Positions 4,689 through 27,236 of a stretch of DNA of 64,000 bases are shown in pieces. The notes beneath the pieces are model-generated. The model made no database searches and was not told where the DNA came from. It was given only the letters and a program-made list of their open reading frames with translations. The translations under genes were made by a program, and so were the position numbers. Numbering within the stretch: the stretch's first letter is position 1; each line of letters starts with the position of its first letter. Source of the DNA: Micromonospora parathelypteridis (GTDB lineage Bacteria; Actinomycetota; Actinomycetes; Mycobacteriales; Micromonosporaceae); NCBI RefSeq assembly GCF_014201145.1, contig NZ_JACHDP010000001.1:2480001-2544000 (forward strand), read 5' to 3'.

Positions 4689-4826
4689 TCAGCGGTTGCG
4701 CAGCGGCCGGAACGCGGCCCGCATCTCGGCGGAGAAGAGCTCCGGCACCTCCCAGGCCGGGAAGTGGCCGCCGCTGTCGGCCTCGCTGAAGTACGAGACG
4801 TTGGGGTAGGCCACCTCCGTCGGCTG
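4689..4826 (-). pseudogene. C-terminal remnant of an epoxide hydrolase-type alpha/beta hydrolase
   Basis: About 44 codons before a TGA at 4689-4691 read as the end of an epoxide hydrolase: SYFSEADSGGHFPAWEVPEL, then FSAEMRAAFRPLRNR. The GGHF histidine is the third member of the family's catalytic triad. Homology stops abruptly upstream near 4826, and the N-terminal 300 or so residues, including the nucleophile, are absent. It is therefore a deletion remnant and cannot be active. Confidence 0.75.
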
Positions 4827-6550: not shown

Positions 6551-6600
6551 ACGAGAGAGGCCCCCGACCGGCGTTCACGCTGGTCGGGGGCCTCTCTCGT
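6551..6600. terminator. Strong hairpin abutting attL, probably the original tRNA-Tyr terminator
   Basis: Perfect 19-bp arms (6551-6569 and 6582-6600) enclose a 12-nt loop that can itself fold. The right arm ends where the 58-bp att repeat begins, that is, just past the 3' end of the tRNA-Tyr copy. Before the element inserted, this would have been the terminator of tRNA-Tyr; it is now 20.5 kb away from that gene. Confidence 0.75.
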
Positions 6601-6657
6601 GCACCTGGTGGCGGGTAGAGGATTCGAACCTCTGAAGCTTTCGCGACGGATTTACAG
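6600..6657 (-). repeat. attL: 58-bp copy of the tRNA-Tyr 3' half
   Basis: It is identical over 58 bp to 27147-27204. It holds the tRNA-Tyr 3' part from the anticodon loop through the T-arm, acceptor strand and CCA. Identity stops two bases past the anticodon, so the 5' half is missing and this copy is not a tRNA gene. It marks the left end of the integrated element. Confidence 0.93.
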
Positions 6658-8525: not shown

Positions 8526-9962
8526 TCACGCCAGAGCCTCGCCGATCTTGTCGTTCATGGTGTCGTCGCCGCCGTCGATGCAGTTCGCGTAGACGCGGAG
8601 CAGGACGGCGACGCCATGGCCCAGGCGCCGGGCGACCTCGGTGGGCGGCACGCCGGCATTCAGCCAGAGCGAGGCCGCCGCGTGCCGCAGGTCGTAGGGC
8701 CGGCGGACGAGCGGCGAGGCGACCTGCGATTCGGTGAGCGCCTTCTCCCGGGCGAGCTTCCACCACCGGTCGTAGACCGACTCAGAGAGCGGCCCACCGT
8801 GCAGGCCCCGGAAGAACCGACCGTCCGGGCCGACCCCGTGATTCTCGACGTGCGCGCACAGCAGTTCGACGAGCCGGGGCGGGATCGGGACCGTGCGAGT
8901 CTCGGCCCTCCCCCGGTGCTTGAGTCCGCGCCGCTCGTGGGAGCCGCCGTCATCGGTCCAGTGCGACCCGGCGCGCGGCGAGGTGCCGGCGAGCACCAGG
9001 CGGCCCCAGCGATGTTCGATCTTCTCGTGGTCGCAGGACCGGGAAGGCTTGACGGCCGCCAGGTCGTCGAAGTCGGCCCCGCAGTCGGCGCACCGGCCGG
9101 CAAGGTCGCAGTCCTCCCGCCGAAGGTCCGCGGCTTCCGACGGCCGCATCCCCGCGTAGTAGAGGCAACCGAAGAACGCGGTGACCTTGTCGGCACGTTT
9201 GCCGAGAGATTTCACCGCCTCCAGCAGCGTGGCGACCTGCGCCGGGTTCGCCACCACACGCCGGTCGATGGACTGCGCGACCTCGGGGGCGGTCCACTGG
9301 ACCCGGTCGACCGGGTTGGAATCGATCAGCTCCAGCTCGACGGCGTACCCGAGCACGTTGTAGAAGGTGGCCCGCTTCCGCTGGACGGTGGAGGCAGCCG
9401 CGGGCTTGCCGTCGAGGCGTACGCACAGGCTGTCGAGGACGCGGCGGACCATCGCCGGTGAGTCGAGTTCGACTACCGGGAGGGACGCGGTTTCCAGCCA
9501 GGCGAGGGCCGCCGCGTGTTCGGCCGGGATCTCCTCGGACCAGCGGCGTGGGTTGAGGCCGTAGAGGTACAGCGCCTCACGGAGCAGGGCGTCAGTCGGT
9601 CGGCCCCGCTTCGCTGGCCGAGTCAGGGTCACCGTGATCGAGGTCAACGCTTCGACGATCGACCGCCGGGTCTTGGCCGCCGCCCGGGGCCACTTCATCT
9701 CGACGTACGCGCGGCTGTGCGCGTACCAGGTGGTGGGGTTCTTGGTTCTGGCCTCGGAGACCGGGCGGCCGGTGGCCGGGTCGAAGGGCTCCCCAGCGTT
9801 GGCCGCCTGGACCAGCTCGGCGCGGAACGAGTGCGCCAGGGCCTTGGTACGGAACATGTCCTCGAAGCGTTGGCCGCTCACCGCCCAGCGGACCCGCCAC
9901 GGCCGAGCCTTCCGATCAGCACGCTTGGCGATCTCCCAGATCTGGACCTCGTAGCTCTTCAT
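8526..9962 (-). CDS. int: Tyrosine site-specific integrase of the AICE
   Basis: A 478-residue tyrosine recombinase that integrates and excises the element at tRNA-Tyr. The ATG at 9960-9962 overlaps the xis stop (ATGA), so it is preferred to an in-frame start 30 nt upstream. The N-terminal half is the arm- and core-binding region. Catalytic elements are Arg in YAGMRPSEA, the box II segment PYDLRHAAA (Tyr where many relatives have His), His in LGHGVAV and the nucleophile Tyr in RVYANCID. An insert with CADCGADF and a distant Cys/His pair (RSCDHE) resembles a zinc knuckle. A degenerate copy of its last 60 residues lies at 7728. Confidence 0.95.
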   Translation of the reverse strand: MKSYEVQIWEIAKRADRKARPWRVRWAVSGQRFEDMFRTKALAHSFRAELVQAANAGEPFDPATGRPVSEARTKNPTTWYAHSRAYVEMKWPRAAAKTRRSIVEALTSITVTLTRPAKRGRPTDALLREALYLYGLNPRRWSEEIPAEHAAALAWLETASLPVVELDSPAMVRRVLDSLCVRLDGKPAAASTVQRKRATFYNVLGYAVELELIDSNPVDRVQWTAPEVAQSIDRRVVANPAQVATLLEAVKSLGKRADKVTAFFGCLYYAGMRPSEAADLRREDCDLAGRCADCGADFDDLAAVKPSRSCDHEKIEHRWGRLVLAGTSPRAGSHWTDDGGSHERRGLKHRGRAETRTVPIPPRLVELLCAHVENHGVGPDGRFFRGLHGGPLSESVYDRWWKLAREKALTESQVASPLVRRPYDLRHAAASLWLNAGVPPTEVARRLGHGVAVLLRVYANCIDGGDDTMNDKIGEALA

Positions 9963-10144
9963 GCGGCGTCCTGCTCCAGGTCGCCGAGCCACCGACCGAG
10001 CGCCGACCGGCGGACCCGGAGCTGCCCGTTCGGAAGCTTGATCACCCGCGGCCCCTTGCCGGTCTGCCGCCAGTAGAACCAGGTCGAGCGGGGTACGCGC
10101 AGTTCAGCGAGCACTTCCGGCACGGTCAACAACTCCTCGTTCAC
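9959..10144 (-). CDS. xis: Excisionase / MerR-type helix-turn-helix protein
   Basis: A 61-residue HTH_17-type protein: LLTVPEVLAELRVPRSTWFY then WRQTGKGPRVIKLPNGQLR, the standard excisionase winged helix. The start GTG at 10142-10144 overlaps the repSA stop (GTGA), and its own stop overlaps the int start (ATGA). This places repSA, xis and int in one translationally coupled run, as in pSAM2. It should direct the integrase towards excision. Confidence 0.93.
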   Translation of the reverse strand: MNEELLTVPEVLAELRVPRSTWFYWRQTGKGPRVIKLPNGQLRVRRSALGRWLGDLEQDAA

Positions 10145-11895
10145 TGCGTCTCCTCCCCGTTGTGCTGTGCGCTGTGCTGAGTTGCCGAAAGATCTGTGGA
10201 CCCCTGCGCGGCCCGGTCTTTGGCTGCGAGCAGTTCGGACCGCCAGCGGGCCCGTTCGCTGATCGATCGCATGAGTCGGTGGGTCATCGGGCCGACGTCC
10301 GGGTCATCCGGTCGGGCCAACTCCCAGGCGTGCCGGACCCGTTCGGTGGTGTCGCCCTGGTCGTCGACGAGCTGCGTGCCGTCGGTGGTGACGCCGAGCA
10401 GTGCTCGTACCCAGGCCCGCGCGTCGTGCTTGTGGTCGGCGAGGGTCTTGCCGGACCAGTCGCGGGAGATGAGGATGCGCCGGCCGCCGATTCCGAGGGT
10501 GTCGCGCTGGTGGACCTTGCCCTTGCAGCGGCCCGGCTTGAGCTTGGCGTGCGTCTTCTTGGGCTGGACGCCGTAGAGCAGCCAGTTAGCGCACCGCTCG
10601 GTGCAGGGAGTCAGCTGGAGTTGGTGCCAGAGCCGGTCGAGATGCTTGCGTTGCCGGTCGGTGGTCGCCTTGTGGCAGTCGCCGGTGTGCTTGGTGATGT
10701 ATTTCGTGACGTACCGGATGGTCCGTTCGGCGTCCTCGGTGCCGGGCATGACGCCGCGGGCATCGACCTGGGCGCCGAAGCGCACGACGTGCACAGGCTC
10801 GGCGTCCGGGTCGTCGTCGATGATGTCGAGGGCTTCCGTCCAGGTGGTCAGCGGCTCGCGGGTGTCTGGGTCTACCCATGTCGCCGCCTGCTCGTCCCAG
10901 ATTGGGAGCCGGTCGAGGGTGTAACGCTGGACGTCGACCGAGGGCCACCACACCTGGTGATAGGTCGCCGCCGCCACGGTGCGGAGGACGTCCCGGGGGA
11001 TGGTGCCCCGGATGGCGAAGTGGGCGTGCGGAGCGAGACGGCGTTGCGGCTCGACGCAGCCGGCGTACTGGACGTTCCAGCCCACGCACCGCCGAAGGTT
11101 CTGCCAGAACCGGTCGAGAAGCCGGGGGAAGTGCACGGCGTCCCAGGCTGCGCGGCGGTAGTCGTACCTGGCGGGGTTGACCGGGGTGCCGTCGGGGCGG
11201 ACCGGGCCGTACGAGTCGAGGGTGAGCGTGAGCCACATCGACGGTTGGTAGGTGGCGCCATCCGGGGCGGTGTAGGTCTTGCCGACGGTGCGCCGCTCAA
11301 CCTTGCGCCGGGGCAGCTCGGGGGCATCCTGGCGCCGTTTGGTGGAGCGCTTGCGTCGCTGGCCAGGCTCGTCGTCCTGGTCCTCGTCGTCGGTGGCATG
11401 GGGTGGTCCGACGCGCCCGCGCAAACCTTCAGCGGCGATGGCTTCCTCTACCTCGCGGATAGCCTCGTCGAGGTCGGTCACCTGGTCCCACTGGGCGGCG
11501 CGTACGGCCTCGTCGCGGGAGAACTCCAGGTGTGCGCGGAACAGGATCAGTGACTTCTGCGCCTCGGTCGCGGGTTCCGGGCCGGGTAGTGGTTCGTCGT
11601 CGCGGTGCCAGCCCTCGCGGATCTGGGCCTGCCGTAGCCGGCGGTTCTTCTTGGCGCACGGCGGGCACTTGTCCTCCCGGGTCGCCCCGCAGGGCAGGTC
11701 GATGACCTCGGTCAGGCCGGTGTCGAGGTCGGTCCGGCGCATGGCGAGCGGACGGACGCAGACGCCGTACTCGATGGCGATGTCCTTGAGGACGTCGATC
11801 GAACGCGGCAGCGCCATGCGGGCCGCCCGCGACCCCGGCCGAGGAGCAATCGGGGTCGGGGCGGGTTCGAGGCCGGGCAGGGTGGGAGCCGTCAT
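10141..11895 (-). CDS. repSA: RepSA-type rolling-circle replication initiator
   Basis: A 584-residue initiator that nicks the element's origin. The HUH motif is PHAHFAIRG (His290 and His292), and the nucleophile motif is RYVTKYITKH (near Tyr395). A Cys-rich patch (CGATREDKCPPCAKK) near residue 73 is typical of this family. The start ATG at 11893-11895 overlaps the upstream gene's stop (ATGA); an in-frame extension to 12024 lies inside that gene and is rejected. The double-strand origin is not evident by eye. It allows the autonomous copies needed for conjugation. Confidence 0.93.
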   Translation of the reverse strand: MTAPTLPGLEPAPTPIAPRPGSRAARMALPRSIDVLKDIAIEYGVCVRPLAMRRTDLDTGLTEVIDLPCGATREDKCPPCAKKNRRLRQAQIREGWHRDDEPLPGPEPATEAQKSLILFRAHLEFSRDEAVRAAQWDQVTDLDEAIREVEEAIAAEGLRGRVGPPHATDDEDQDDEPGQRRKRSTKRRQDAPELPRRKVERRTVGKTYTAPDGATYQPSMWLTLTLDSYGPVRPDGTPVNPARYDYRRAAWDAVHFPRLLDRFWQNLRRCVGWNVQYAGCVEPQRRLAPHAHFAIRGTIPRDVLRTVAAATYHQVWWPSVDVQRYTLDRLPIWDEQAATWVDPDTREPLTTWTEALDIIDDDPDAEPVHVVRFGAQVDARGVMPGTEDAERTIRYVTKYITKHTGDCHKATTDRQRKHLDRLWHQLQLTPCTERCANWLLYGVQPKKTHAKLKPGRCKGKVHQRDTLGIGGRRILISRDWSGKTLADHKHDARAWVRALLGVTTDGTQLVDDQGDTTERVRHAWELARPDDPDVGPMTHRLMRSISERARWRSELLAAKDRAAQGSTDLSATQHSAQHNGEETQ

Positions 11896-12434
11896 CGGAT
11901 GATCCCGACGACCTGGGGCCGATTGGGCTGGACGACACCGACCCGAGGCAGCACCGCGGCTGATGCCGGCGGCATCACCGGAGCCGGCGGCGCGGGTTCG
12001 ACAGGCTGCGGCTCGTCGTACCAATCGCCCTGCGGCTGATCGGGCTCCGCTGCCGGCGCGGCGGTGGGTGCGCTGGACAGGACGACCTTCACCAGGGCGA
12101 GGAAGGCCAGCGACGGCACCGCCGCGACGATCCAGCCCCAGACGGACGGTTCGGCTTCGGCGACCTGGGCGGCGAGGGAGAGCAGCGCGAACGCGATCAG
12201 GAGGACGCCGACCAGGCCGACAGGTCGACCGGTGCGACGGCGGGCACGGATCTCCAGGCCGAGGTAGATCGCCATCAGCTCGACCGCCACGGCGTTGGCC
12301 CAGCCGATCCAGTCGGGCTGGCCGTGGGCAACGGTCAGGTCGTGGACGTGGGTGAAGGCGGCGGCGCCGGCCATGGTGCCGATGGCGAGCAGGATCAGCA
12401 CCCGGACGCCGGACTCGGCGCGTTCGCGGATCAT
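11892..12434 (-). CDS. DUF2637-like membrane protein, probable spread (Spd) protein
   Basis: A 180-residue protein with about four hydrophobic helices in its first 120 residues (LILLAIGTMAGAAAF; WANAVAVELMAIYLGLEI; LVGVLLIAFALLSLAA; WIVAAVPSLAFLALV), then a Pro/Ala-rich cytoplasmic tail. The helical part matches DUF2637 proteins found between repSA and tra in AICEs, where Spd proteins help spread plasmid DNA within the recipient mycelium. Both ends overlap neighbours by 4 nt. Confidence 0.82.
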   Translation of the reverse strand: MIRERAESGVRVLILLAIGTMAGAAAFTHVHDLTVAHGQPDWIGWANAVAVELMAIYLGLEIRARRRTGRPVGLVGVLLIAFALLSLAAQVAEAEPSVWGWIVAAVPSLAFLALVKVVLSSAPTAAPAAEPDQPQGDWYDEPQPVEPAPPAPVMPPASAAVLPRVGVVQPNRPQVVGIIR

Positions 12435-12622: not shown

Positions 12623-12889
12623 TTACCTCCGGGCCGGGGCGACGCGGGTACGGATGTGGTCGGGTGGCTCGCCGAGGGAGGCCACCGCTTCGGAGAGGCA
12701 GCGCCACAGCGCCCACGCCTCGTCAGGGGTCAGGTACATGCGGCGCCGGCCGCCGCCTACTGCGAGATAGACCGGGTACGCATCGGGCCGGGCGGGGTCG
12801 ACGCGAACGGACACCGCCGTGCTGGTGGCGCCGTCGGTGCCGGGAGCGCGCAGCCGGTAGAAGGTTCGGCCGTCGGTCGGGGCGGTCAC
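12623..12889 (-). CDS. Small AICE backbone protein, unknown function
   Basis: An 88-residue protein beginning MTAPTDGRTFYRLRAPGTDG. It contains RPDAYPVYLAVGGGRRRMYL and a C-terminal helix with DEAWALWRCLSEAV. The GTG start overlaps the traB stop (GTGA), so it is translated after the translocase in the same operon. No enzyme motif or membrane segment is seen. Similar-sized genes occupy this slot in other AICEs. Confidence 0.7.
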   Translation of the reverse strand: MTAPTDGRTFYRLRAPGTDGATSTAVSVRVDPARPDAYPVYLAVGGGRRRMYLTPDEAWALWRCLSEAVASLGEPPDHIRTRVAPARR

Positions 12890-14511
12890 CGCGGCTCACC
12901 CCCGTCGGTGTCCCGGTCGAGGATGTTCAGCAGCGAATCCGGAAGCAGTGGTCCGCGACGCTGCCGGGGCAGAGGCGGCCGGGTTGGTTCGGTGGCGGTT
13001 TCCCGGCCGACCTGGGCGAGGATGTCCGCCGCGTCGGCCGGCGCCGGGTACTCGGCGGCCAGCTCCCGGATGTGGTCGTCAGAGATGTAGGAAAAGCGCA
13101 CCCGCGCCGGCTCTGGAATGCCGTCGAGAATCACGTAGCCGACCCCCTTGGCCCAGCGGGGCATCTGGTCGGCGAGGGCACCCCGGTTGCGGGCACCGTC
13201 ACCCAACACGAGGTCGACCTGAGCAGCCTCGGTCAGGCCGAGCGCGATCCGGGTCGGGAACAGGTCCCGGAACGGCAGCACCTCCTTGCGGGGGTCCTGC
13301 AACGCGGCCACCACCAGGACGCCGACGCCGGCACCCTGCGACAGCAGCAGACCGAGCGACCCGGCGACGCGCTTACGCAGGTCGACATCCTGGAGGTACG
13401 CGGTCAGTGCCGCCATCTCGTCGATGACGACCACGACCAGGGGGTCATCCAGGGTCGGCGTGTGGACCCGCACCGCGCCGGCAAGCCGGGTCTGCCGCTC
13501 CCGCATCACTGTCACGGCCTCGTCGAGCAGATCGGCCATGGCCTCGAACGACTTGCAGGCGAACCGCGCGAACAACGGCCGACCCATCGCGAACTCCATG
13601 CCGCCCTTGGGATCGATCACCCAGAGCCGGACCAGCCCGGAGGAGATCCCACCGGCCAGGACCCGGACCAGCGACCACAGCACCGAGCCCTTACCGGAGC
13701 GGGTGGCACCGCCGATGAGTACGTGCGTGGCCAGCAGGTGCAGGCACCAGTGCCGCAGGTCTTCCCGTCGAGCCAGGGGTAGCGCGGTGAAGTCGGGCAC
13801 CGATGGGACGTCGAACGGGTCGACCAGGGTGCGCAGCGCATCCGTGCGGACCACCACCAGGTAGACCACCGACGGCCGGTCGCGGAACCGCAACCGGTCC
13901 ACCGCGCCCAGGACCAGCGCCCAGTAGCCCGACCGGATCGGCGGTTCATCGGGACGCTCGGAGTAGACCCGGGCGTGCCGCCGGCCGAAGGCGTACGCCA
14001 GGTTCGCCGTCGCCTTCTGGAACTCCTCCGGTGTCTGGCCGCGGACCATGCGGATGGTCAGCACGTCGAGCGCCTGATCCGAACGGACCCGCAGCAACTC
14101 CGGCAGGACCGTGCGATGGTCGTACACCTTGGCCAGCCCGCAGAGGGTCATTGCCTCGCGCCAGGCCCGCCGGTAGACGAAGAGTTGGCGGAACCGGCCG
14201 AGGATCGGGCCGGCGCACCAGGTCCACCAGGACGACTCGTGCCGCCACCGCCACAGCGCCGAGACGGCAGCGGCCAGGACCACGGGCACGATCACGCCGG
14301 ACCGGCCGAACTCGCGGTAGAGGCTCACCCCAGCCACGACCAGGGCGACGGCGAGCGGGTGGCGAAGACACCACCACAGGCCACGCCACAGCCACCGCAG
14401 CACCAGGCCGACCGCGATCAGCCAGACCGGCAACTCCAGCCGGCGCGGCCGGATCACCATCAGATCCCCGGCGGTGGTCATCACGACCTCGCCACGCGGC
14501 CGGCGCATCAT
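12886..14511 (-). CDS. FtsK/SpoIIIE-type DNA translocase TraB, conjugal transfer
   Basis: A 541-residue protein that pumps double-stranded element DNA between mycelia, the single-protein transfer mode of AICEs. Hydrophobic helices lie at about 28-50 and 50-87. Walker A is GGATRSGKGS (267-276), Walker B is VVVVIDE (about 358-364), and the FtsK segment ALQDPRKEVLPFRDLFPTR follows. Starts at 14511, 14508 or 14481 are all in frame; the last has GAGG nearby. An 18-codon ORF ends over the first start codons. A hairpin separates the gene from pra. Confidence 0.93.
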   Translation of the reverse strand: MMRRPRGEVVMTTAGDLMVIRPRRLELPVWLIAVGLVLRWLWRGLWWCLRHPLAVALVVAGVSLYREFGRSGVIVPVVLAAAVSALWRWRHESSWWTWCAGPILGRFRQLFVYRRAWREAMTLCGLAKVYDHRTVLPELLRVRSDQALDVLTIRMVRGQTPEEFQKATANLAYAFGRRHARVYSERPDEPPIRSGYWALVLGAVDRLRFRDRPSVVYLVVVRTDALRTLVDPFDVPSVPDFTALPLARREDLRHWCLHLLATHVLIGGATRSGKGSVLWSLVRVLAGGISSGLVRLWVIDPKGGMEFAMGRPLFARFACKSFEAMADLLDEAVTVMRERQTRLAGAVRVHTPTLDDPLVVVVIDEMAALTAYLQDVDLRKRVAGSLGLLLSQGAGVGVLVVAALQDPRKEVLPFRDLFPTRIALGLTEAAQVDLVLGDGARNRGALADQMPRWAKGVGYVILDGIPEPARVRFSYISDDHIRELAAEYPAPADAADILAQVGRETATEPTRPPLPRQRRGPLLPDSLLNILDRDTDGGEPR

Positions 14512-15331: not shown

Positions 15332-16777
15332 TTGAGCATCGAAGAATCCCCCGTTGAAATCGGGTCCAGCGAGGCAGACTTTACGCCAGAGGTTGAGATC
15401 GACAATCAAGATCCTCACCTTGAAGCACACCCCCACCTCCCCCCCATTGACGTGGCGACCGAACTCCTTTCCGCTTCCGGATGGTCCATTACATATGACG
15501 CTGAGGGCCGCTATGAGATAAAGAGCAATCCTCAAGCAGATGCGGCCGCCAAATGCAGTTCGGTTGGTGTCAGGTTACTTGCACACGAACATTCGTTCGG
15601 ATTTACGCCGACCGACAAACATGTCGGACATATATCCGCTGACAACCGATACGTCGAATTTGTCCTCAAAGCTCTTGAAAGCAGGTTTGGGCGTGGCCAA
15701 ATCCACCTCGACGTCGCCTGTTCGCATTCACTCAGGAGCAACGACCATCCTTCGCTCTTCCCGAATGCACGAACTCACCTAGGCATGGCGGAGCCTGGCC
15801 CTGCAATCTGGGCCCACGTGCACAGTCCGCGCGCGAGGACCTGCATCGAGATTTCAGCCGCGAGCGCGAGCATGGCGTTTCAAATGCTTGAGGCGGAGGC
15901 TCGTTGGGGGTCCCCTTGGTCGAGAGACGGCCGAGAGTTAACGCGGTTCTACTCGATCAAGATTCGATTCGAAAACGATCTCGGCCGCTCGGTAGCCCTA
16001 CATGTGGCAGAAGAATTGGCTCGATCCCTGCTCTTTGAAGCCGCCGCTTCATTGCGCACGTCGACGAGCCTCATTCCCAGAAGGGAGCGAGGGTCGTATC
16101 ATGCCCGTATAGCTTCGCGCCTTGCGACTCTGCGCTTTCCTGTCGCACGGTTCAATGATCAGGCTGCCGCCCTCTTCCAACTTGCCTCCGATCATTTCAA
16201 CCAGACCGTCCTAAACCGTTACATTCTCTACTACCAAAGCGTCGAATACTACCTACCGCTGCATGACCGGAAGGCAGCCATCCAACAGATTCGGCGGACC
16301 TTGCACTCCCCACTTTTTAGCCTGTCCGAGGATGAAGACGTACTTAGCCTGATTGGCATCCTAGGCAGGCAATCATCCAAAAGTGAGCGCGATTCGTTCG
16401 TAGACTTGGTTGCCGACTCCGTGGGGTCCGACAGAATAATGAATTGGTTGACACAACTCGAACGATCCGTACCAGAGCATTTTACAAAGAGAGGGCCCAT
16501 CAAGCATGTCACCACTCTCTCGTCCAAGGACACATCGCGAGACATCGTCAAGCAAGTCGCAAATCGTATTTACGACGTCAGGTGCCGCATAGTCCACTCC
16601 AAAGCCGGCGGCGGCAAGGAAGGCATTGAAGCAATCTTCCCAGGAGATCGCGAAGCGAATGCCCTGCAGCCAGATCTAGAACTGTTGCGGGTGGTGGCCA
16701 TAGAAGTGATCTCCGGTTTCGGGTCACCGCTAACCCTTGTGGGCGCGATGGACACCGATGCCCGGAACGATGCGTAA
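15332..16777 (+). CDS. HEPN (Apea-like) domain protein, candidate defence or abortive-infection gene
   Basis: A 481-residue cytoplasmic protein opened by TTG; no ATG or GTG is available in frame before residue 150, so the start is uncertain. The C-terminus carries a HEPN RNase-type motif: IYDVRCRIVHSKAG, an Rx4H (Arg417-His422). A preceding helix reads YILYYQSVEYYLPL, a pattern common in proteins that carry Apea-like HEPN domains. The N-terminal 280 residues are unrecognised. The gene is clearly lower in G+C than the AICE backbone, which suggests recent acquisition as cargo. HEPN proteins often cleave RNA in antiviral systems; that role is inference. Confidence 0.75.
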   Translation: MSIEESPVEIGSSEADFTPEVEIDNQDPHLEAHPHLPPIDVATELLSASGWSITYDAEGRYEIKSNPQADAAAKCSSVGVRLLAHEHSFGFTPTDKHVGHISADNRYVEFVLKALESRFGRGQIHLDVACSHSLRSNDHPSLFPNARTHLGMAEPGPAIWAHVHSPRARTCIEISAASASMAFQMLEAEARWGSPWSRDGRELTRFYSIKIRFENDLGRSVALHVAEELARSLLFEAAASLRTSTSLIPRRERGSYHARIASRLATLRFPVARFNDQAAALFQLASDHFNQTVLNRYILYYQSVEYYLPLHDRKAAIQQIRRTLHSPLFSLSEDEDVLSLIGILGRQSSKSERDSFVDLVADSVGSDRIMNWLTQLERSVPEHFTKRGPIKHVTTLSSKDTSRDIVKQVANRIYDVRCRIVHSKAGGGKEGIEAIFPGDREANALQPDLELLRVVAIEVISGFGSPLTLVGAMDTDARNDA

Positions 16778-16805: not shown

Positions 16806-17249
16806 ATGGCAGGAAGGAAACACACGAAGCCGGTTGATGAGTCGCATGCGCGGCCGGGAAAGACGGAAGACATAACCGTTGAGGCCTTAGGCGAATTGAG
16901 CAAGGCGCTCGAAACGATCCATCGGGTGCGAGGTCACCTGTACTCGGCACACCAACTCGTCGGCGGGGCGGACCTCACACTTGACCGTGTCGTGAAGCTA
17001 TTCCGCGAAGCCGGACACGACGAGATGGCCGACCGGGTCGAACACGAGCTCCTGGGCCGCAACGTCCTACCAGGCCGGTGGACGTTCCAGATCGTGGAGG
17101 AGTTCGACGACGGCTACTACGCCGCGTTCCAGGAGATCGAGCGGGACGCGCGGGAGAAGTTGGCCGGCGGTCGGCGGCACATCTTTGAGGCGGAGATGAA
17201 GGAGCGGCGGCGTACCCACGGGATGCCAGGGCACGAAGCTACGCCGTAG
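16806..17249 (+). CDS. Conserved AICE-associated protein of unknown function
   Basis: A 147-residue hydrophilic, mostly helical protein starting MAGRKHTKPVDESHARPGK, with GAGGG about 6 nt before the ATG. It contains IHRVRGHLYSAHQLVGGADL and GRWTFQIVEEFDDGYYAAFQ. I recall similar proteins in actinobacterial mobile elements, but no function. It follows the HEPN gene by 28 nt on the same strand, so the two may be co-transcribed, although its G+C looks host-like. It converges with the GT2 gene, overlapping it by 11 nt. Confidence 0.7.
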   Translation: MAGRKHTKPVDESHARPGKTEDITVEALGELSKALETIHRVRGHLYSAHQLVGGADLTLDRVVKLFREAGHDEMADRVEHELLGRNVLPGRWTFQIVEEFDDGYYAAFQEIERDAREKLAGGRRHIFEAEMKERRRTHGMPGHEATP

Positions 17250-18015
17250 CGCGACCGCCGAAGCCGTTCGGGATCATCGAGGCTAGGGCGTTGGCTCTGG
17301 CCTCGATGATCCGCATCCGAGCCCGGTATTCGGCCGGCTCTCGGTGCGCGCCCTGGCTGGTCACCTGGCCGGGCCACTTGCGGTAAAGCAGGCCGTACTC
17401 CCGGGTGAAGTAGCCCGCGCTGACCGCGTTGGCGGCGAGTAACAGGCCGGTGTCCTCGGAGGCCGGCAGCGCCATCCAGCCGCCGAGGGCGAACACAAGA
17501 TCCCGCCGCAGGCACAGGGTCGCCGGGTGCACCGAGGCCCGGTAGTCATTGGCCTTCCAGAACGACAGGACCGAACCGCGGTCGATGACGCCGCCGGCCG
17601 GGTCCTTGTCCCATCCTGCGGTCGACCCGTCGGGCAGCAGGTCGAGTACCCGCGAGGTGGTCCAGCCGATCTGCGGGTGCGCGTCGAACGCGGCGATGTC
17701 CCGCGCGAGCGCACCGGCGGTCAACTGGTCGTCGGCGTCCAGGACCTTGATGAGTTGCCCGGAGACCCGGGAGAGAGCGAGGGTACGGGCGACACCAGGC
17801 CCACCGGGACGGCCGGTGCCCAGACTGATCCGGAGATCGTCAGGGAGCGCGTCGACCAGGGCGCCGGTCTGCCCGTCCTCCTGGACGAGCCATTCCCAGT
17901 CCCAGCCGTCAGGCATCTCCTGCTTGGCCAATGACTCGTAGGCGCCAGGCAGGTGCTCGATGCTGGGCGCGTGGACCGGGGTGATGACCGAGACGAGCTG
18001 CGTCAAGTTTTCCAC
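17239..18015 (-). CDS. Family 2 glycosyltransferase
   Basis: A 258-residue GT-A fold enzyme. The nucleotide-binding N-terminus VSVITPVHAPSIEHL and the metal-binding DADD in IKVLDADDQL (a DxD) are present, and ASEDTGLLL occupies the place of the catalytic ED. No membrane helix is seen, so it is cytosolic. The GTG start overlaps the GntR gene's 3' end by 13 nt; it is the last gene of a four-gene coupled operon with two DUF6907-like genes and a GntR regulator. This GT2/GntR pair is a recurrent AICE cargo; its acceptor is unknown. Confidence 0.85.
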   Translation of the reverse strand: MENLTQLVSVITPVHAPSIEHLPGAYESLAKQEMPDGWDWEWLVQEDGQTGALVDALPDDLRISLGTGRPGGPGVARTLALSRVSGQLIKVLDADDQLTAGALARDIAAFDAHPQIGWTTSRVLDLLPDGSTAGWDKDPAGGVIDRGSVLSFWKANDYRASVHPATLCLRRDLVFALGGWMALPASEDTGLLLAANAVSAGYFTREYGLLYRKWPGQVTSQGAHREPAEYRARMRIIEARANALASMIPNGFGGRATA

Positions 18016-21082: not shown

Positions 21083-22156
21083 TCAGCGGCCCCCCCTTAG
21101 CCGAGAGCGGCCTTTCTGACGGTTTTGAAGAATCGCTAGGACCGCCGCACCGAGTGCTTGCGCCATCCGCACAGGAACAGCATTACCAATCTGCCGTTCA
21201 ATGGAACCGAAGTCCCCTACAAAGCGATAGTTCGAAGGGAACGTCTGAAATGCGGCCGCTTCGCGAAGAGTCAGGCCACGGTGTTCAGTCGGGTGAATGA
21301 AAGAGCCGCAGGCAGGCGTGACGCACCTAGTCGTCATCGTTGGAGCAGGAGCGTCCAACCGAACCCGCCCATAAGAGGCAGTCGCGTTTCTTTTCCTCAG
21401 ATTGATGTGGCAGGCCAACTGGTGCTCCGGCGGCAGATCAAAACGGTTACCACCAACGGGCACGGCAGCAATACGAGCAGCAACTTTGGGCGAGTGGCGG
21501 CGATGCTTGTTCAGAGCGTCGTCGGGAGCGGCTTTGTGGCGGAGCTCGTCTAACGCTTCTTTTGCCGTCTTGGGTGCTTGCGCAAACCACTCACCCAGTA
21601 GCTCAGGGAGAGTGCCAGGCAAGTGGCCACGTCGACCTCGGACCGCCACCATGATAAGGCGTCGCCGCCGCTGCGGCACACCGACCATTGCGGCATCCAG
21701 CTTGAAGGAGACAAACGAGTAGCCCAACGAGGCAAGCGCTTCCTTCATCCGACTGAATCGCACGTCCCGCTCGAGCCCCGGCACATTCTCTAGCAGGACC
21801 GCAGACGGGCGCAGGGATCTAATGAATCGTATGACGTCTAGGACGAGGTCGTTACGCTCGCTGTTATTTGCCGTCTCTCCGCCGTGCGCGAGGGTCGAAA
21901 AGCCCTGACATGGCGGACAAGCCTTTAGGAGAGTTAGCTGACCGGGTTCGAGCCCCAAATCTCGTCGCAACTGGCTAGCAGCCAGCGTCCGGATGTCCTG
22001 CTCCCACAGCTTCGTGGCCGGTTGGTTGAGCCGGTACGAGGCCGCGGCTGCGGCGTCGTTCTCCACTGCCCCGATGACGGCAAAGCCCGCAGCACGTAAC
22101 CCTTCCGTGGCACCGCCTGCTCCAGCAAACAGGTCGATGCACGTCAGGTGATCCAC
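21083..22156 (-). CDS. DNA (cytosine-5) methyltransferase
   Basis: A 357-residue C5-cytosine methyltransferase with all diagnostic motifs in order: SAM-binding motif I (CIDLFAGAGGATEGLRAAGF, residues 6-25), catalytic motif IV CPPCQGFS (Cys83), motif VI LLENVPG (121-127), motif VIII VPQRRRRL (160-167), a variable target-recognition region of about 100 residues, motif IX PAPTMTTRC and motif X QIGNAVP. It is complete and should be active; the target sequence cannot be read from the protein. The start is GTG 22154-22156. It diverges from a GHKL ATPase-nuclease gene, a pairing that signals restriction-modification. G+C is lower than in the AICE backbone. Confidence 0.95.
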   Translation of the reverse strand: MDHLTCIDLFAGAGGATEGLRAAGFAVIGAVENDAAAAASYRLNQPATKLWEQDIRTLAASQLRRDLGLEPGQLTLLKACPPCQGFSTLAHGGETANNSERNDLVLDVIRFIRSLRPSAVLLENVPGLERDVRFSRMKEALASLGYSFVSFKLDAAMVGVPQRRRRLIMVAVRGRRGHLPGTLPELLGEWFAQAPKTAKEALDELRHKAAPDDALNKHRRHSPKVAARIAAVPVGGNRFDLPPEHQLACHINLRKRNATASYGRVRLDAPAPTMTTRCVTPACGSFIHPTEHRGLTLREAAAFQTFPSNYRFVGDFGSIERQIGNAVPVRMAQALGAAVLAILQNRQKGRSRLRGGR

Positions 22157-22282
22157 GAAGGCATGCTACATGATCAATGGTGATGGCCGCGACGGTGACA
22201 TTCCGTGACAACCTGGTCTACAGGGGGGTAGCGCTCAAGGTTCTCCTGGGTCACGATGCTGGTCTACACGATGGAGGGTGAC

Positions 22283-24571
22283 GTGCAGGAGATGCAGGAG
22301 CCGACAGTGCCAGCGGGTGGGGGAACCTCAGATCAGGTGGGTGAGGTCGCCGCGTCGGGCGTGCCAGCGATGAGGCAACCGGGTGATGGCCAGCCGCCGA
22401 AGCACAAATACACGATGAAGATCAGTCGCCTGACGATCGACAAGCTGGGCATCAAACTGTACGACCGAGTCACGGCTGTTTTGGCGGAGCTCATTGCCAA
22501 CTCCTATGATGCTGACGCCGAGAAAGTTGAGATCATTCTCCCGTGGGGGGTCTTCCTTAGCGCGGGCAGCTCGAAGACGGGGCCGGCGGACGCGGCTCAG
22601 GTTATACAACCGGCTCAAGATCCTGTTACTAATTCGCCCATACCCTCCGCTCAAACGGCACTTGTTGCGTTTGAAGACGCCCAGCCTGTCGTGACCATGC
22701 ACGAGATAACGATCGATGACGATGGTCATGGCATGACGGCAGAAGAGCTAAACCAGTACTACTTATCCGTCGGAGCCGACCGCCGCAAGCGGACTGGCAG
22801 TGACAAATCTCGTGACAAGTTACGGCCAGTGATGGGGCGTAAGGGGATCGGCAAGCTTGCCCCATTCGGTATTTGCGAGACGGTGGAGGTAATTACCGCT
22901 GGGGGCGACGCAACAGCGAAGGGCTACCGCGTTTCGCACATCGTTATGCGACTCGGTGAGATGTTGGCCGACACTGACGCCGAATACAACCCGGAGCCAG
23001 GCGAGCTCGATGGGACATACACACCGAACCATGGTACTACGATCAAGCTTCGCGACTTTTTCCGCAAACGCGTCCCTAGCCGTGAAGAATTGGACCGTCA
23101 GCTCTGCGCTCGCTTCGGTTTGACGCGAGAGGATTGGAAAGTAACGATCCAAAATTCTTTGCAAAGCGACCAGTCTTTCGAATTGGGAACGCTTAAGATT
23201 GACTATCTTGAAGACACGAAGATTGAACTTTCAGATCGCCCTGTTCCATATGGAGACACCTACCTCCCCGTGACCGGTTTCGTAGCGTACGCACGGAAGC
23301 CGTATAAGGACCCCGCCATGGCGGGGGTTCGTGTCTATGCGCGCGGTAAGATCGTTGCGCAGACGCGGGACTTTGATATTAACTCTGGCTTCACCGGTGA
23401 ATTCAAGATGCGGTCTTACCTAGTCGGAGAGATTCACGCCGAATGGCTCGACCAGGAGGACGATCTTGTCCGTTCAGACCGACAGGACATCATCTGGGCC
23501 TCTGACCAGGGTGAGGCCCTGAAGCTCTGGGGCCAACTCGTAGTTAAGGAACTCGCCAAGCGTGCTGACGAGGCGATGCGCAAGGAGAAGTGGAAGGAGT
23601 TCCAGAAGAAGGCCGAGCTTGATAAGAAACTGGGGAGTTCCTCAACGAACGAGCCAGAGCTTCGGGAGTCCGTCACGGAGGCCGCAAAACTGCTAGTAAA
23701 GGATGTGGATCCGGAGGCGCTCGAAGACCAAGAGCATGTCGACCGAATAGCCGACCTGGCGATTGCTATCGGTCCGCACCGAACTCTGCTAGGGACGCTC
23801 AGGGAGGTAGCAGAAACAACTGCTACGACAGTCGACGCCGTCATGGCCCTATTTCATCGTGCACGACTTGCCGAGATGTATTCGCTCGGACAAGTTGCCG
23901 ATAAGCGCTTAGAAGTGATAGCGAAACTTGAGCAACTGGTTGCTGACCCCGCCACCCTCGAGCGGCCGCTGCAAGAGTTGATCGAGCAGGCCCCATGGAT
24001 CCTTGCCCCAGAATGGACGCCACTCGGCATGAATGAGTCGCTGAAGCGCGTCCGTGCGAGTTTCGAGGCGTGGTACTTCAAGAACTTTGGCGAAGAAATC
24101 GTGACCTCCGCAATCGACAACAAGCGGAAGGAGCCCGATTTCGTCATGCTGAATGAGTCCGGCACCCTCTGGATCGTGGAGATCAAACGGCTCGAATATC
24201 ACTTGACCAATGGCGAGTACGAGCGTGGTACGGATTATCTTCAGGCTCTTAACAACTTTCTTGACGGCAATCCAGAATTGGGGAATCAGTTCCCGTTCCG
24301 ACGCCTCACCTTCGTGGTAGATCACGTCGATAAGCTTGGCTCGATGGCTAAATCCTCATTGGAGTCGGACCCAAGGATCAACCGACAAACCTGGCATGGG
24401 CTCTTGGACCTGACAAAGCGCGCGCACAAAGATTTCCTTGCCAGGGTCGACGCAGTCAAGGCTGGGCAAGCAATGGGCGCTGCTCAAGATACGGAGGCCG
24501 AGGACGGCGACTTCGTTCTGTTCGAAGTCGACAGCCAGGGTTCGGTGAGCGTTTCTGAGGAAGTTCGCTAG
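22283..24571 (+). CDS. MORC-type GHKL ATPase fused to a C-terminal PD-(D/E)xK nuclease (predicted restriction component)
   Basis: A 762-residue protein from GTG 22283, chosen for its GGAGG 5 nt upstream; ATG 22256 is a possible longer start. The GHKL ATPase signature is complete: N-box AELIANSYDADA (about 69-79), G1 IDDDGHGM (144-151), G2 GRKGIGKLA (185-193), with a Pro/Ala-rich insert between N and G1. A middle region with coiled-coil character (KEKWKEFQKKAELDKKL) links to a C-terminal PD-(D/E)xK fold: EPDFVML, then LWIVEIKR (Asp619, Glu633, Lys635). Bacterial MORC/MutL-like ATPases beside cytosine methylases were predicted as restriction systems by Iyer, Abhiman and Aravind. It diverges from the methyltransferase across 126 bp. 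Confidence 0.88.
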   Translation: MQEMQEPTVPAGGGTSDQVGEVAASGVPAMRQPGDGQPPKHKYTMKISRLTIDKLGIKLYDRVTAVLAELIANSYDADAEKVEIILPWGVFLSAGSSKTGPADAAQVIQPAQDPVTNSPIPSAQTALVAFEDAQPVVTMHEITIDDDGHGMTAEELNQYYLSVGADRRKRTGSDKSRDKLRPVMGRKGIGKLAPFGICETVEVITAGGDATAKGYRVSHIVMRLGEMLADTDAEYNPEPGELDGTYTPNHGTTIKLRDFFRKRVPSREELDRQLCARFGLTREDWKVTIQNSLQSDQSFELGTLKIDYLEDTKIELSDRPVPYGDTYLPVTGFVAYARKPYKDPAMAGVRVYARGKIVAQTRDFDINSGFTGEFKMRSYLVGEIHAEWLDQEDDLVRSDRQDIIWASDQGEALKLWGQLVVKELAKRADEAMRKEKWKEFQKKAELDKKLGSSSTNEPELRESVTEAAKLLVKDVDPEALEDQEHVDRIADLAIAIGPHRTLLGTLREVAETTATTVDAVMALFHRARLAEMYSLGQVADKRLEVIAKLEQLVADPATLERPLQELIEQAPWILAPEWTPLGMNESLKRVRASFEAWYFKNFGEEIVTSAIDNKRKEPDFVMLNESGTLWIVEIKRLEYHLTNGEYERGTDYLQALNNFLDGNPELGNQFPFRRLTFVVDHVDKLGSMAKSSLESDPRINRQTWHGLLDLTKRAHKDFLARVDAVKAGQAMGAAQDTEAEDGDFVLFEVDSQGSVSVSEEVR

Positions 24572-24729: not shown

Positions 24730-25428
24730 TTAGCTCGGATCGCTCTGCGGATTTTCTTCACCGGGCACCTGCGCCGCCTCGGCGCCGGAGCTTTTTCTAC
24801 GCCGCTCCCGCTCCTCACGCTTCTCGCGGTCGATATCCTCAAGGATCGCCTCTTCGTCGGCTAGAGCTGCCTCGTAGGCCGCAACGAAGCTGGGCGGTGC
24901 GGGAGGCGGGTTACCTTGCACGTAGGCCGCGACAAGAGCGAGACCGTACCGATTGCAGTTATGGGCGATGAGCCAGTCGCGGTCCCCTTCGAAGTTGTTG
25001 ATGGCACTCCTGCTGTAGAACCTCGTGAGCTGGTACAGACGCTCACGTAGCGGCGTTGGCGCGGCCGCAGTGTGGGCCTGGATCTCCCGGAGGAGACGAC
25101 TCTCTGTATTGCGACCGTCGGCGGTGAGGGAATGGTTCTCATCTCGCTCCACGACGTACAGGTGTTCAATGTCCAGCAACAGTTGTCGGATAGCCATGAC
25201 GGCCTGCCGCTCGTGATCCCGCCTGCGAAGCCATGCCTCTCGCTGCCAACCCAGCGCGAACAGGACTGTAGCCGTCGTTGTGCCTATACCACCAAGCCAG
25301 TCCGGAAATGACCCCCAGTCGACAACTCGATTACCGACGATGGCAGACATGCTGAGGGCCACACCTGTGATGCTCAGAGCGATGCAGCCGATGAGTAGGT
25401 TCCGGGTTGTGGCAGCAGGCTTCTTCAT
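24730..25428 (-). CDS. Two-helix membrane protein of unknown function
   Basis: About 232 residues from ATG 25426-25428 (MKKPAATTRNLLIG); an in-frame GTG at 25455 is possible and neither has a strong ribosome site. Two hydrophobic helices lie near the start (LLIGCIALSITGVALSMSAI and WLGGIGTTTATVLFALGW), followed by a long hydrophilic, helical domain and a charged tail (REKREERERRRKSS). The topology suggests a small membrane anchor with a cytoplasmic sensor or effector part. No family is recognised. It converges on the GHKL-nuclease gene and may belong to the same cargo block. Confidence 0.65.
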   Translation of the reverse strand: MKKPAATTRNLLIGCIALSITGVALSMSAIVGNRVVDWGSFPDWLGGIGTTTATVLFALGWQREAWLRRRDHERQAVMAIRQLLLDIEHLYVVERDENHSLTADGRNTESRLLREIQAHTAAAPTPLRERLYQLTRFYSRSAINNFEGDRDWLIAHNCNRYGLALVAAYVQGNPPPAPPSFVAAYEAALADEEAILEDIDREKREERERRRKSSGAEAAQVPGEENPQSDPS

Positions 25429-25455
25429 TAGGGCCACTTTGCCGGGCTCCCTCAC

Positions 25456-25796: not shown

Positions 25797-26369
25797 CTAC
25801 AATCGACTCCACCTCGTCTCCAGTTCTTCATTCGGATTAGGGATGCGGACTGGCCGTCGACGAAAGAAGGGCAAGAGCTTGCCGAGGCTGAACCAGAGTC
25901 TTTTCGGAAAGGATCGTCGGGCCAGCGGGTCAAACTCTAGCTCGAGACCCGTGCGTTCACGTCTAATCCAAACCCGCCCGATCGAATCCTCAAATTGTAT
26001 TCCCTTGAGCGACCAGGCCGACCCTACGACCAGGGGAATTTCGACGTCGGTGACCTCTTTCGGCGGCAACGCTCCCACAGGAAGTTCCACGTACCTTCCC
26101 CTCCTCGGCCCGGTACCAGAGGGGATTGCTTGATAGACCACGAAGCAGTGGTAGACGGCCGCGTCAGAGCTATTACGTACGCGGACGACGCGGAGCCCAC
26201 CCGTTGGAACCCAAGCCGAAACCAGGCTAGCCTGCTGGCGGCGGTGTTCTTCAATTTCCTCCGAACGCTGAGCCAGTGTGTTGGCTAGAAGCCTGAGGCT
26301 AATCAGCAGGGCAATCGTCGAACCGACAGCGGAGACCCATGCCGGCACCGTGCCCCAAATACCGTCCAC
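25797..26369 (-). CDS. Single-helix membrane protein with a beta-sandwich-like domain, unknown function
   Basis: A 190-residue protein with one N-terminal helix (VPAWVSAVGSTIALLISLRL), a short coiled linker (SEEIEEHRRQQ) and a beta-rich domain (LRVVRVRNSSDAAVYHCFVV, then LPPKEVTDVEIPLVVG). This layout (helix, charged linker, Asn-Ser-Ser-containing beta domain) recurs in actinobacterial hypothetical proteins. Its C-terminus is basic. It is the last cargo gene before attR. Its function is unknown. Confidence 0.65.
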   Translation of the reverse strand: MDGIWGTVPAWVSAVGSTIALLISLRLLANTLAQRSEEIEEHRRQQASLVSAWVPTGGLRVVRVRNSSDAAVYHCFVVYQAIPSGTGPRRGRYVELPVGALPPKEVTDVEIPLVVGSAWSLKGIQFEDSIGRVWIRRERTGLELEFDPLARRSFPKRLWFSLGKLLPFFRRRPVRIPNPNEELETRWSRL

Positions 26370-27109: not shown

Positions 27110-27139
27110 CCCCTGACCAGCATCTCTGCTGATCAGGGG
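27110..27139 (-). terminator. Element-supplied terminator for tRNA-Tyr
   Basis: The 13-bp arms CCCCTGACCAGCA (27110-27122) and TGCTGATCAGGGG (27127-27139) have one mismatch and a TCTC loop, 13 nt past the tRNA CCA on the element side. It replaces the terminator that the insertion moved to 6551-6600. Confidence 0.75.
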
Positions 27140-27146
27140 CCGTGTC

Positions 27147-27204
27147 TGCACCTGGTGGCGGGTAGAGGATTCGAACCTCTGAAGCTTTCGCGACGGATTT
27201 ACAG
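27147..27204 (-). repeat. attR: 58-bp att core within the intact tRNA-Tyr
   Basis: It is identical to 6600-6657. The copy runs from just outside the CCA end to the anticodon loop of the functional tRNA-Tyr gene. The element therefore restores the tRNA 3' half on integration, the usual AICE strategy. Confidence 0.93.
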
Positions 27205-27236
27205 TCCGCTCCCATTGGCCGCTCGGGCAACCCGCC
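27153..27236 (-). tRNA. tRNA-Tyr (GTA)
   Basis: 84 nt including an encoded CCA. The acceptor GGCGGGT pairs with ACCCGCC, the anticodon stem-loop GGACTGTAAATCC carries GTA, a long variable arm is present (type II tRNA, as expected for bacterial Tyr), and the T-arm reads AGAGG-TTCGAAT-CCTCT. It is the integration target of the AICE. Confidence 0.96.

Follow-up and report, generated by a model that had tools for sequence, protein, structure and literature searches.

A putative restriction-modification gene pair with a GHKL ATPase–nuclease, carried on a pSAM2-type integrative element of Micromonospora parathelypteridis

Gene Pair and Active Sites

The 64,000-nucleotide stretch analyzed here, referred to as the window, derives from Micromonospora parathelypteridis (contig NZ_JACHDP010000001.1, positions 2,480,001 to 2,544,000) and contains a gene for a C5-cytosine DNA methyltransferase next to a gene whose product unites a GHKL ATPase with a PD-(D/E)xK nuclease. 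The pair is interpreted below as probably a Type II-like restriction-modification (R-M) module, carried as cargo by a pSAM2-type actinomycete integrative and conjugative element (AICE). Its features are as follows.

21083–22156, minus strand: C5-cytosine DNA methyltransferase, 357 amino acids, GTG start, PCQ motif with Cys83
22163–22168, minus strand: TAGCAT, resembling a −10 element, 6 nt upstream of the methyltransferase start codon
22273–22278, plus strand: GGAGGG, the likely ribosome-binding site of the nuclease gene
22283–24571, plus strand: GHKL ATPase, conserved middle region and PD-(D/E)xK nuclease, 762 amino acids (771 from ATG 22256)
22403–22915, plus strand: GHKL ATP-binding region, residues 50–220 of 771, with E78/N82, D155/G157/G159 and G194–K200
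23933–24460, plus strand: C-terminal PD-(D/E)xK nuclease domain, Shedu SduA_C-like, with E569, D628, E642 and K644

Inspection of the open reading frames (ORFs) placed the two genes adjacent and divergent, separated by 126 bp (22157–22282). The methyltransferase matches the Pfam domain DNA_methylase over residues 5–338 (E 1.6e-52), the cysteine of its PCQ motif being residue 83. The longest nuclease ORF begins at ATG 22256 and encodes 771 amino acids, while an alternative GTG at 22283 gives 762. The latter is the most likely start, because GGAGGG sits four bases upstream of it; in relative L086 the nuclease GTG is preceded by GAGGAGG.

The nuclease protein matches HATPase_c_3 of Pfam (E 2.2e-16), and a 49-member profile, comprising the window protein and 48 homologs picked from 120 listed, matches TRAP1/HSP90 structures (E 3.6e-5). 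Residues E78, N82, D155, G157, G159, G194, G197, G199 and K200 (771-residue numbering, used throughout) are invariant in all 49 members, and we take them to be the N, G1 and G2 boxes of the GHKL superfamily. The region carries a variable insertion at approximately residues 105–148, and the middle region following it is conserved in the 49-member alignment. The nuclease domain (C-terminal 176 residues) was aligned for 40 of 43 prepared stretches, with L066, L067 and L052 left out. D628, E642 and K644 are invariant in all 40 of these divergent members, the window protein included, and E569 is kept in at least 90% of them. At the level of sequence, a restriction-endonuclease fold is supported for this domain, since 32 of the 40 domains match the SduA_C profile with E ≤ 0.01, the strongest of them with 4.5e-7. 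The window's own domain is a weak match (E 0.0042), lying below the Pfam gathering score of 27 both as the whole protein (14.8 bits) and as the domain alone (17.7 bits), and the nuclease-domain profile gave no match to solved structures up to E 10. The protein as a whole has 2,537 homologs at E ≤ 1e-3 among 7,998 scored candidates, a number far above chance.

The original prediction, made from the letters of the DNA, had described a complete C5 methyltransferase and, across 126 bp, a 762-residue protein with ATPase and nuclease in one chain and a nuclease site at Glu633 (E642 in the present numbering), the two genes forming an R-M-like pair on a conjugative element. At the level of sequence these points hold.

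Integrative Conjugative Element

The restriction pair is cargo inside an AICE, toward attR. The defining features of the element are the following.

6600–6657: attL, left end of the AICE; exact 58-bp direct repeat that copies part of tRNA-Tyr
8526–9992, minus strand: tyrosine integrase (PF00589, E 9.8e-11)
10141–12024, minus strand: replication initiator, RepSA of pSAM2 (PF20199, E 4.2e-99)
12886–14511, minus strand: FtsK/SpoIIIE-type protein, probable transfer protein (PF01580, E 6.3e-8)
27147–27204: attR, right end of the AICE; second copy of the 58-bp repeat, within tRNA-Tyr
27153–27236, minus strand: tRNA-Tyr gene

Since the integrase, RepSA and the FtsK/SpoIIIE protein all lie between repeats at tRNA-Tyr, positions 6600–27204 are identified from their sequence as a pSAM2-type AICE inserted in the tRNA-Tyr gene. 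The 58-bp repeats form part of a longer imperfect repeat (6561–6657 against 27110–27204, 88%). An integrase, RepSA, an FtsK-like protein and tRNA insertion with direct repeats are shared with pSAM2-type AICEs, from which this element differs only in its cargo. According to the available text of two papers, AICEs transfer their DNA in double-stranded form, and their reported cargo includes R-M systems (PMC3218068, PMC9513070).

The tRNA-Tyr regions of eight relatives (L093–L100) were compared. In L094, L096, L097 and L100 the right flank continues through the repeat into sequence resembling the window's left flank; the likeness past the imperfect repeat spans only about 10 bases in the first three and 57 bases in L100, and L094 has a second left-flank match at 4689–4809. 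L095 has the repeat alone, in L099 the likeness stops at the repeat, and L093 and L098 have further element-like sequence. By these comparisons an empty insertion site in relatives is supported, not proved. Two of these relatives give the tRNA-Tyr locus the look of a hotspot for AICEs. L093 (genome G048) has, beside tRNA-Tyr, a stretch resembling the integrase region of the window; in L098 (G044) the tRNA-Tyr region is matched three times within ~7 kb, a pattern like that of tandem elements.

Other genes of the element include a 481-amino acid ORF with no Pfam match (15332–16777, plus strand) and a family 2 glycosyltransferase (17239–18015, minus strand). Two ORFs on the minus strand between the nuclease gene and attR (24730–25455, 241 amino acids; 25797–26369, 190 amino acids) had no confident family match and are possibly further cargo.

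Distribution of the Nuclease and Its Methyltransferase

Within the window's genus, the nuclease (E ≤ 1e-50) was found in two of 160 genomes and the methyltransferase (E ≤ 1e-80) also in two of 160; these are the same two genomes, the window's own being one. In the reverse test, the window's type of methyltransferase occurred in three of 394 genomes of the class, each time with a divergent nuclease. The three are the window's genome, that of L048 (already known) and L118, so that only L118 is new.

A scan of the collection yielded 164 candidate stretches; 127 were confirmed as relatives, and the best 80 of these were used further. A C5 methyltransferase lies within 6 kb of the nuclease gene in at least 51 of these best 80 loci, 51 being a minimum because some contigs end before 6 kb. 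The 29 loci without one comprise 27 from Nocardia together with L070 and L071 (short contig). The divergent arrangement is common to the 12 closest paired loci (window, L086, L002–L008, L011, L033 and L036). The original prediction was to be refuted by homologs occurring mostly without a methyltransferase neighbor; the 51 loci do not refute it, although none of the 27 Nocardia loci has such a neighbor.

Among mobile elements, a C5 methyltransferase adjoins the nuclease in all three plasmid matches opened (of 23 records) and in the sole phage match. One plasmid locus (L115, record CP138365, typed conjugative) encodes a distant GHKL nuclease and a C5 methyltransferase, and this pair directly adjoins another C5 methyltransferase with a HaeIII family restriction endonuclease.

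Methyltransferase Families and Exchange of Partners

The neighboring methyltransferases fall into three families in a tree that left out L085, L076, L074 and L092: A (support 100/100), which includes those of the window, L048 and L049; B (99/96); and C (100/100). L076 was assigned to family A from a 77-residue fragment only. The nuclease tree was computed with SH-like approximate likelihood ratio test (SH-aLRT) support and a midpoint root, with L089, L090 and L092 left out. One of its branches, with support 100, parts 37 rows from the window's side, and all three methyltransferase families are found on both sides of it. Family A accompanies the window nuclease on one side and L048, L049 and L076 (the fragment) on the other; family C accompanies L034–L039 on one side and L045 with many others on the other; family B is found with L040 and with a third nuclease clade. 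Nocardioides L048 and Labedella L045 have sister nucleases (support 100) that are 73% identical, differing at 194 of 670 positions, and their methyltransferases, of families A and C, respectively, are 30% identical. Between the window and L048 the methyltransferases are 62% identical and the nucleases 41%. In the pairwise comparison L057 was represented by a second methyltransferase that is not adjacent to its nuclease, and its rows there are artifacts.

At a 60% consensus, none of the nuclease columns tracks the difference between families A and C, and two go against it. The denominator for this comparison is the 282 columns in which all four groups have a consensus, and 113 of these vary; L057 belongs to the C group in this denominator and stands outside it in the column test. 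For A versus B four columns follow and two go against, and for C versus B two follow and three go against, both comparisons being weak with L040 as the sole member of group B1. Either the methyltransferase families modify the same or an overlapping site, or the check made by the nuclease is not tied to one co-evolving site.

The methyltransferase genes of family A also share a promoter-like element. Each of the 13 divergent family A loci examined has a TANNAT hexamer upstream of the methyltransferase gene, the distance from the end of the hexamer to the start codon being 6 nt in 12 loci and 7 nt in L036; since the loci are related, this is conservation and not 13 independent events. As background, the two strands of the window together offer 128,000 positions, and TANNAT is found at 26 of them. 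L118 has TAAGGT at the 6-nt distance, and L049, where the methyltransferase lies upstream of the nuclease on the same strand, lacks the −10-like element. A distance of 6–7 nt is close to the usual spacing between a −10 element and the transcription start. The methyltransferase mRNA is therefore predicted to be leaderless, whereas the nuclease gene has a ribosome-binding site. A literature search on leaderless mRNA of R-M methyltransferase genes returned only one off-topic review.

Nocardial Homologs

The nuclease is present in 37 of the 148 Nocardia genomes searched, two of the matches being partial (G642, G672). In nine nocardial nuclease pairs the ratio of nonsynonymous to synonymous substitution rates (dN/dS) is 0.06–0.13; the gene is under purifying selection and is therefore kept. 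About 5.9 kb from one nocardial nuclease gene lies a frame that resembles a C5 methyltransferase and is broken by a single internal stop (G007:C15:52073–53164), possibly a relic of a former partner. In G023 a 78-bit methyltransferase match lies ~14.6 kb from the nuclease on the same contig.

C5 methyltransferases of another family gave matches in all 27 nuclease-bearing Nocardia, and the six retrieved (L101–L106) belong to one family of ~400 amino acids. This core methyltransferase was considered as an unlinked partner. It is present in 20 of 20 nuclease-negative genomes (of 111) and in 12 of 12 nuclease-positive ones, one genome being common to the set of 27 and this set of 32. As it occurs with or without the nuclease, its co-occurrence argues neither for nor against a link, and it was not adopted.

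Avoidance of sites was assessed in Nocardia genomes with the nuclease and without it (10 genomes and 400 kb for each set), for palindromes with enough expected counts (all 16 tetranucleotides and 41 of 64 hexanucleotides). None of these 57 palindromes is absent from nuclease-bearing Nocardia, and the nocardial protein therefore cannot freely cut any such site unprotected. The lowest observed/expected values in nuclease-positive genomes were those of CTAG (0.36, with 0.33 in negative genomes) and AGGCCT (0.45, with 0.65 in negative genomes, p 0.10), and the lowest nuclease-positive/negative ratios were 0.73 and 0.67. For GTCGAC the values were 0.91 in nuclease-positive and 0.95 in nuclease-negative genomes. 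The smallest uncorrected p among the extreme palindromes and GTCGAC as listed was 0.045.

Comparison with Known Systems

The domain order and the pairing are already known, matching the paraMORC3 class and, distantly, the BbrUII/HgiDII restriction enzymes; the less expected part is the exchange of partners together with a nocardial clade lacking a linked one. In the available text of Iyer, Abhiman and Aravind (2008), paraMORC3 proteins consist of GHKL, S5 and a C-terminal restriction endonuclease-fold domain with an E-D-ExK motif, occur partly in R-M neighborhoods and partly stand-alone, and are prevalent in proteobacteria and bacteroidetes; that text gives no target. The window protein, from an actinomycete, fits this class by its intact GHKL ATP-binding motifs and C-terminal E-D-ExK domain, on which the assignment rests. 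The exact S5 motif of MORC given by these authors (GhXhhpXXRhl) was found in none of the 49 members; 48 match once the p position is left free and K is allowed in place of R. The original label, MORC-type, is thus better replaced by paraMORC3. The domain order, for which the original prediction knew of no defined mechanism, has precedents: the architecture was described in 2008, NCBI gives distant relatives the name of BbrUII/HgiDII restriction enzymes, and VcSduA, with the same order, has, in the text available, been tested by mutation against phage.

With those BbrUII/HgiDII enzymes (NCBIfam NF050001) whose loci were examined, the window pair shares an N-terminal GHKL domain, a C-terminal nuclease and a neighboring C5 methyltransferase. 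The NF050001 model covers most of the window protein, but the score of 252 bits is under the cut-off of 550, so that the protein is not a member; all 10 relatives scanned scored 231–264 bits. True members occur in the phylum (L087 and L088, 766–771 bits). Compared with four true members, the window nuclease is 23–27% identical, and the methyltransferases (three compared) are 30–33% identical. M.HgiDII and M.BbrUII recognize GTCGAC, according to the available text of papers citing the originals. GTCGAC was considered as the window's target and not adopted, given that the nuclease fails the family cut-off.

VcSduA, a Shedu nuclease with a GHKL N-terminus, is anti-phage and loses activity on mutation of either the ATPase or the nuclease (PMC12137116, in the text available). 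The window protein shares its domain order and nuclease type and differs in having a methyltransferase partner, none being reported for VcSduA in that text, and in scoring under the SduA_C cut-off. A closer parallel in gene content is found in Escherichia phage PhiR44_1, where a 'ParaMORC3' GHKL nuclease adjoins a C5 methyltransferase ('Dcm protein'). Here the genes are convergent, and the nuclease is 23% identical to that of the window and a true NF050001 member (751 bits). DNA of this pair occurs in 30 of 5,426 E. coli genomes; among the 12 E. coli rows listed, six proteins are named BbrUII/HgiDII family restriction enzyme and six ATP-binding protein, and a DNA cytosine methyltransferase accompanies every one of them. 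Literature searches found nothing on the combination of GHKL, Shedu and methyltransferase, nor on phage PhiR44, and a targeted search on SduA, GHKL, nuclease and ATPase together gave no match.

Proposed Function

The R-M interpretation is favored because the methyltransferase, the GHKL ATP-binding site and the PD-(D/E)xK site are all intact at the level of sequence, because divergent pairing is kept in the closest relatives and the genes co-occur in the same genomes, and because both lie between the ends of an AICE, a type of element that passes on double-stranded DNA and may include R-M systems in its cargo. NCBI gives a restriction-enzyme name to distant relatives that are paired in this way, and the loss of anti-phage activity in both kinds of VcSduA mutant argues in the same direction. 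The most likely function would be a methylation-guarded, ATP-gated restriction of incoming double-stranded DNA. The methyltransferase, expressed from its leaderless promoter, would modify the DNA of host and element. The nuclease would dimerize through its ATP-bound GHKL domains and so clamp DNA, and its C-terminal domain would cut DNA lacking the methyl mark. ATP-bound GHKL dimerization in MutL and HSP90 provides the picture of such a clamp. As AICEs transfer double-stranded DNA, the pair may restrict phages and rival elements in the host and protect the element on arrival.

Several results weigh against this interpretation. No C5 methyltransferase lies within 6 kb at any of the 27 Nocardia loci, and none of family A was found in the 27 nocardial genomes (completeness unstated), where the best match reaches 126 bits against 364–565 bits for full-length family A neighbors. 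The methyltransferase families are exchanged and no column of the nuclease tracks the difference between A and C, which is unexpected for a strictly co-evolving, site-specific pair. The GTCGAC target, moreover, is not transferable to the window nuclease at 252 against 550 bits.

An alternative is a Shedu-like defense nuclease that is triggered by a phage-associated state of DNA and not by a fixed unmethylated site, the methyltransferase being accessory or separate. The SduA_C-like nuclease domain would suit this, as would VcSduA, reported with the same domain order as a defense system in its own right (in the text available), the nocardial homologs kept under purifying selection with no linked methyltransferase, the swapping of methyltransferase families and the presence of all 57 tested palindromes in nuclease-bearing Nocardia. 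We nevertheless consider it unlikely, given a C5 methyltransferase nearby in at least 51 of the best 80 loci, its exchange outside Nocardia for another C5 methyltransferase rather than its loss, and the co-occurrence of the two genes in the window's genus.

A further reading, which we regard as rather doubtful, retains restriction and loosens the pairing. The protein would be a stable, ATP-gated 'missing-mark' nuclease with an exchangeable partner, not reading a site that co-evolves with one methyltransferase; related nucleases would work with three C5 families, and the nocardial ones with a core C5 methyltransferase of the host or with none.

That the pair is mainly an addiction module, which maintains the AICE in the lineage by killing any cell that has lost it and acts against phage as a side effect, seems improbable. 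Its position inside the element toward attR and its rarity in the genus (two of 160 genomes) would agree with such a role, which is mechanistically compatible with the R-M reading, the question being which effect was selected. A regulatory methyltransferase beside a non-cutting GHKL protein is highly improbable: no biochemical evidence was found for the window nuclease clade, but D628, E642 and K644 are invariant in all 40 domains and the tested relatives are under purifying selection.

The R-M interpretation would place a GHKL-nuclease restriction pair on an actinomycete element that transfers double-stranded DNA. The exchange of partners and the nocardial clade make the role of the ATPase in a two-gene restriction system directly testable, raising the questions of whether unrelated methyltransferases can shield DNA from one and the same nuclease and whether ATP binding gates the check. 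Were the partner indeed exchangeable, ATP-driven clamping, and not a recognition domain matched to the methyltransferase, would make the decision between self and non-self.

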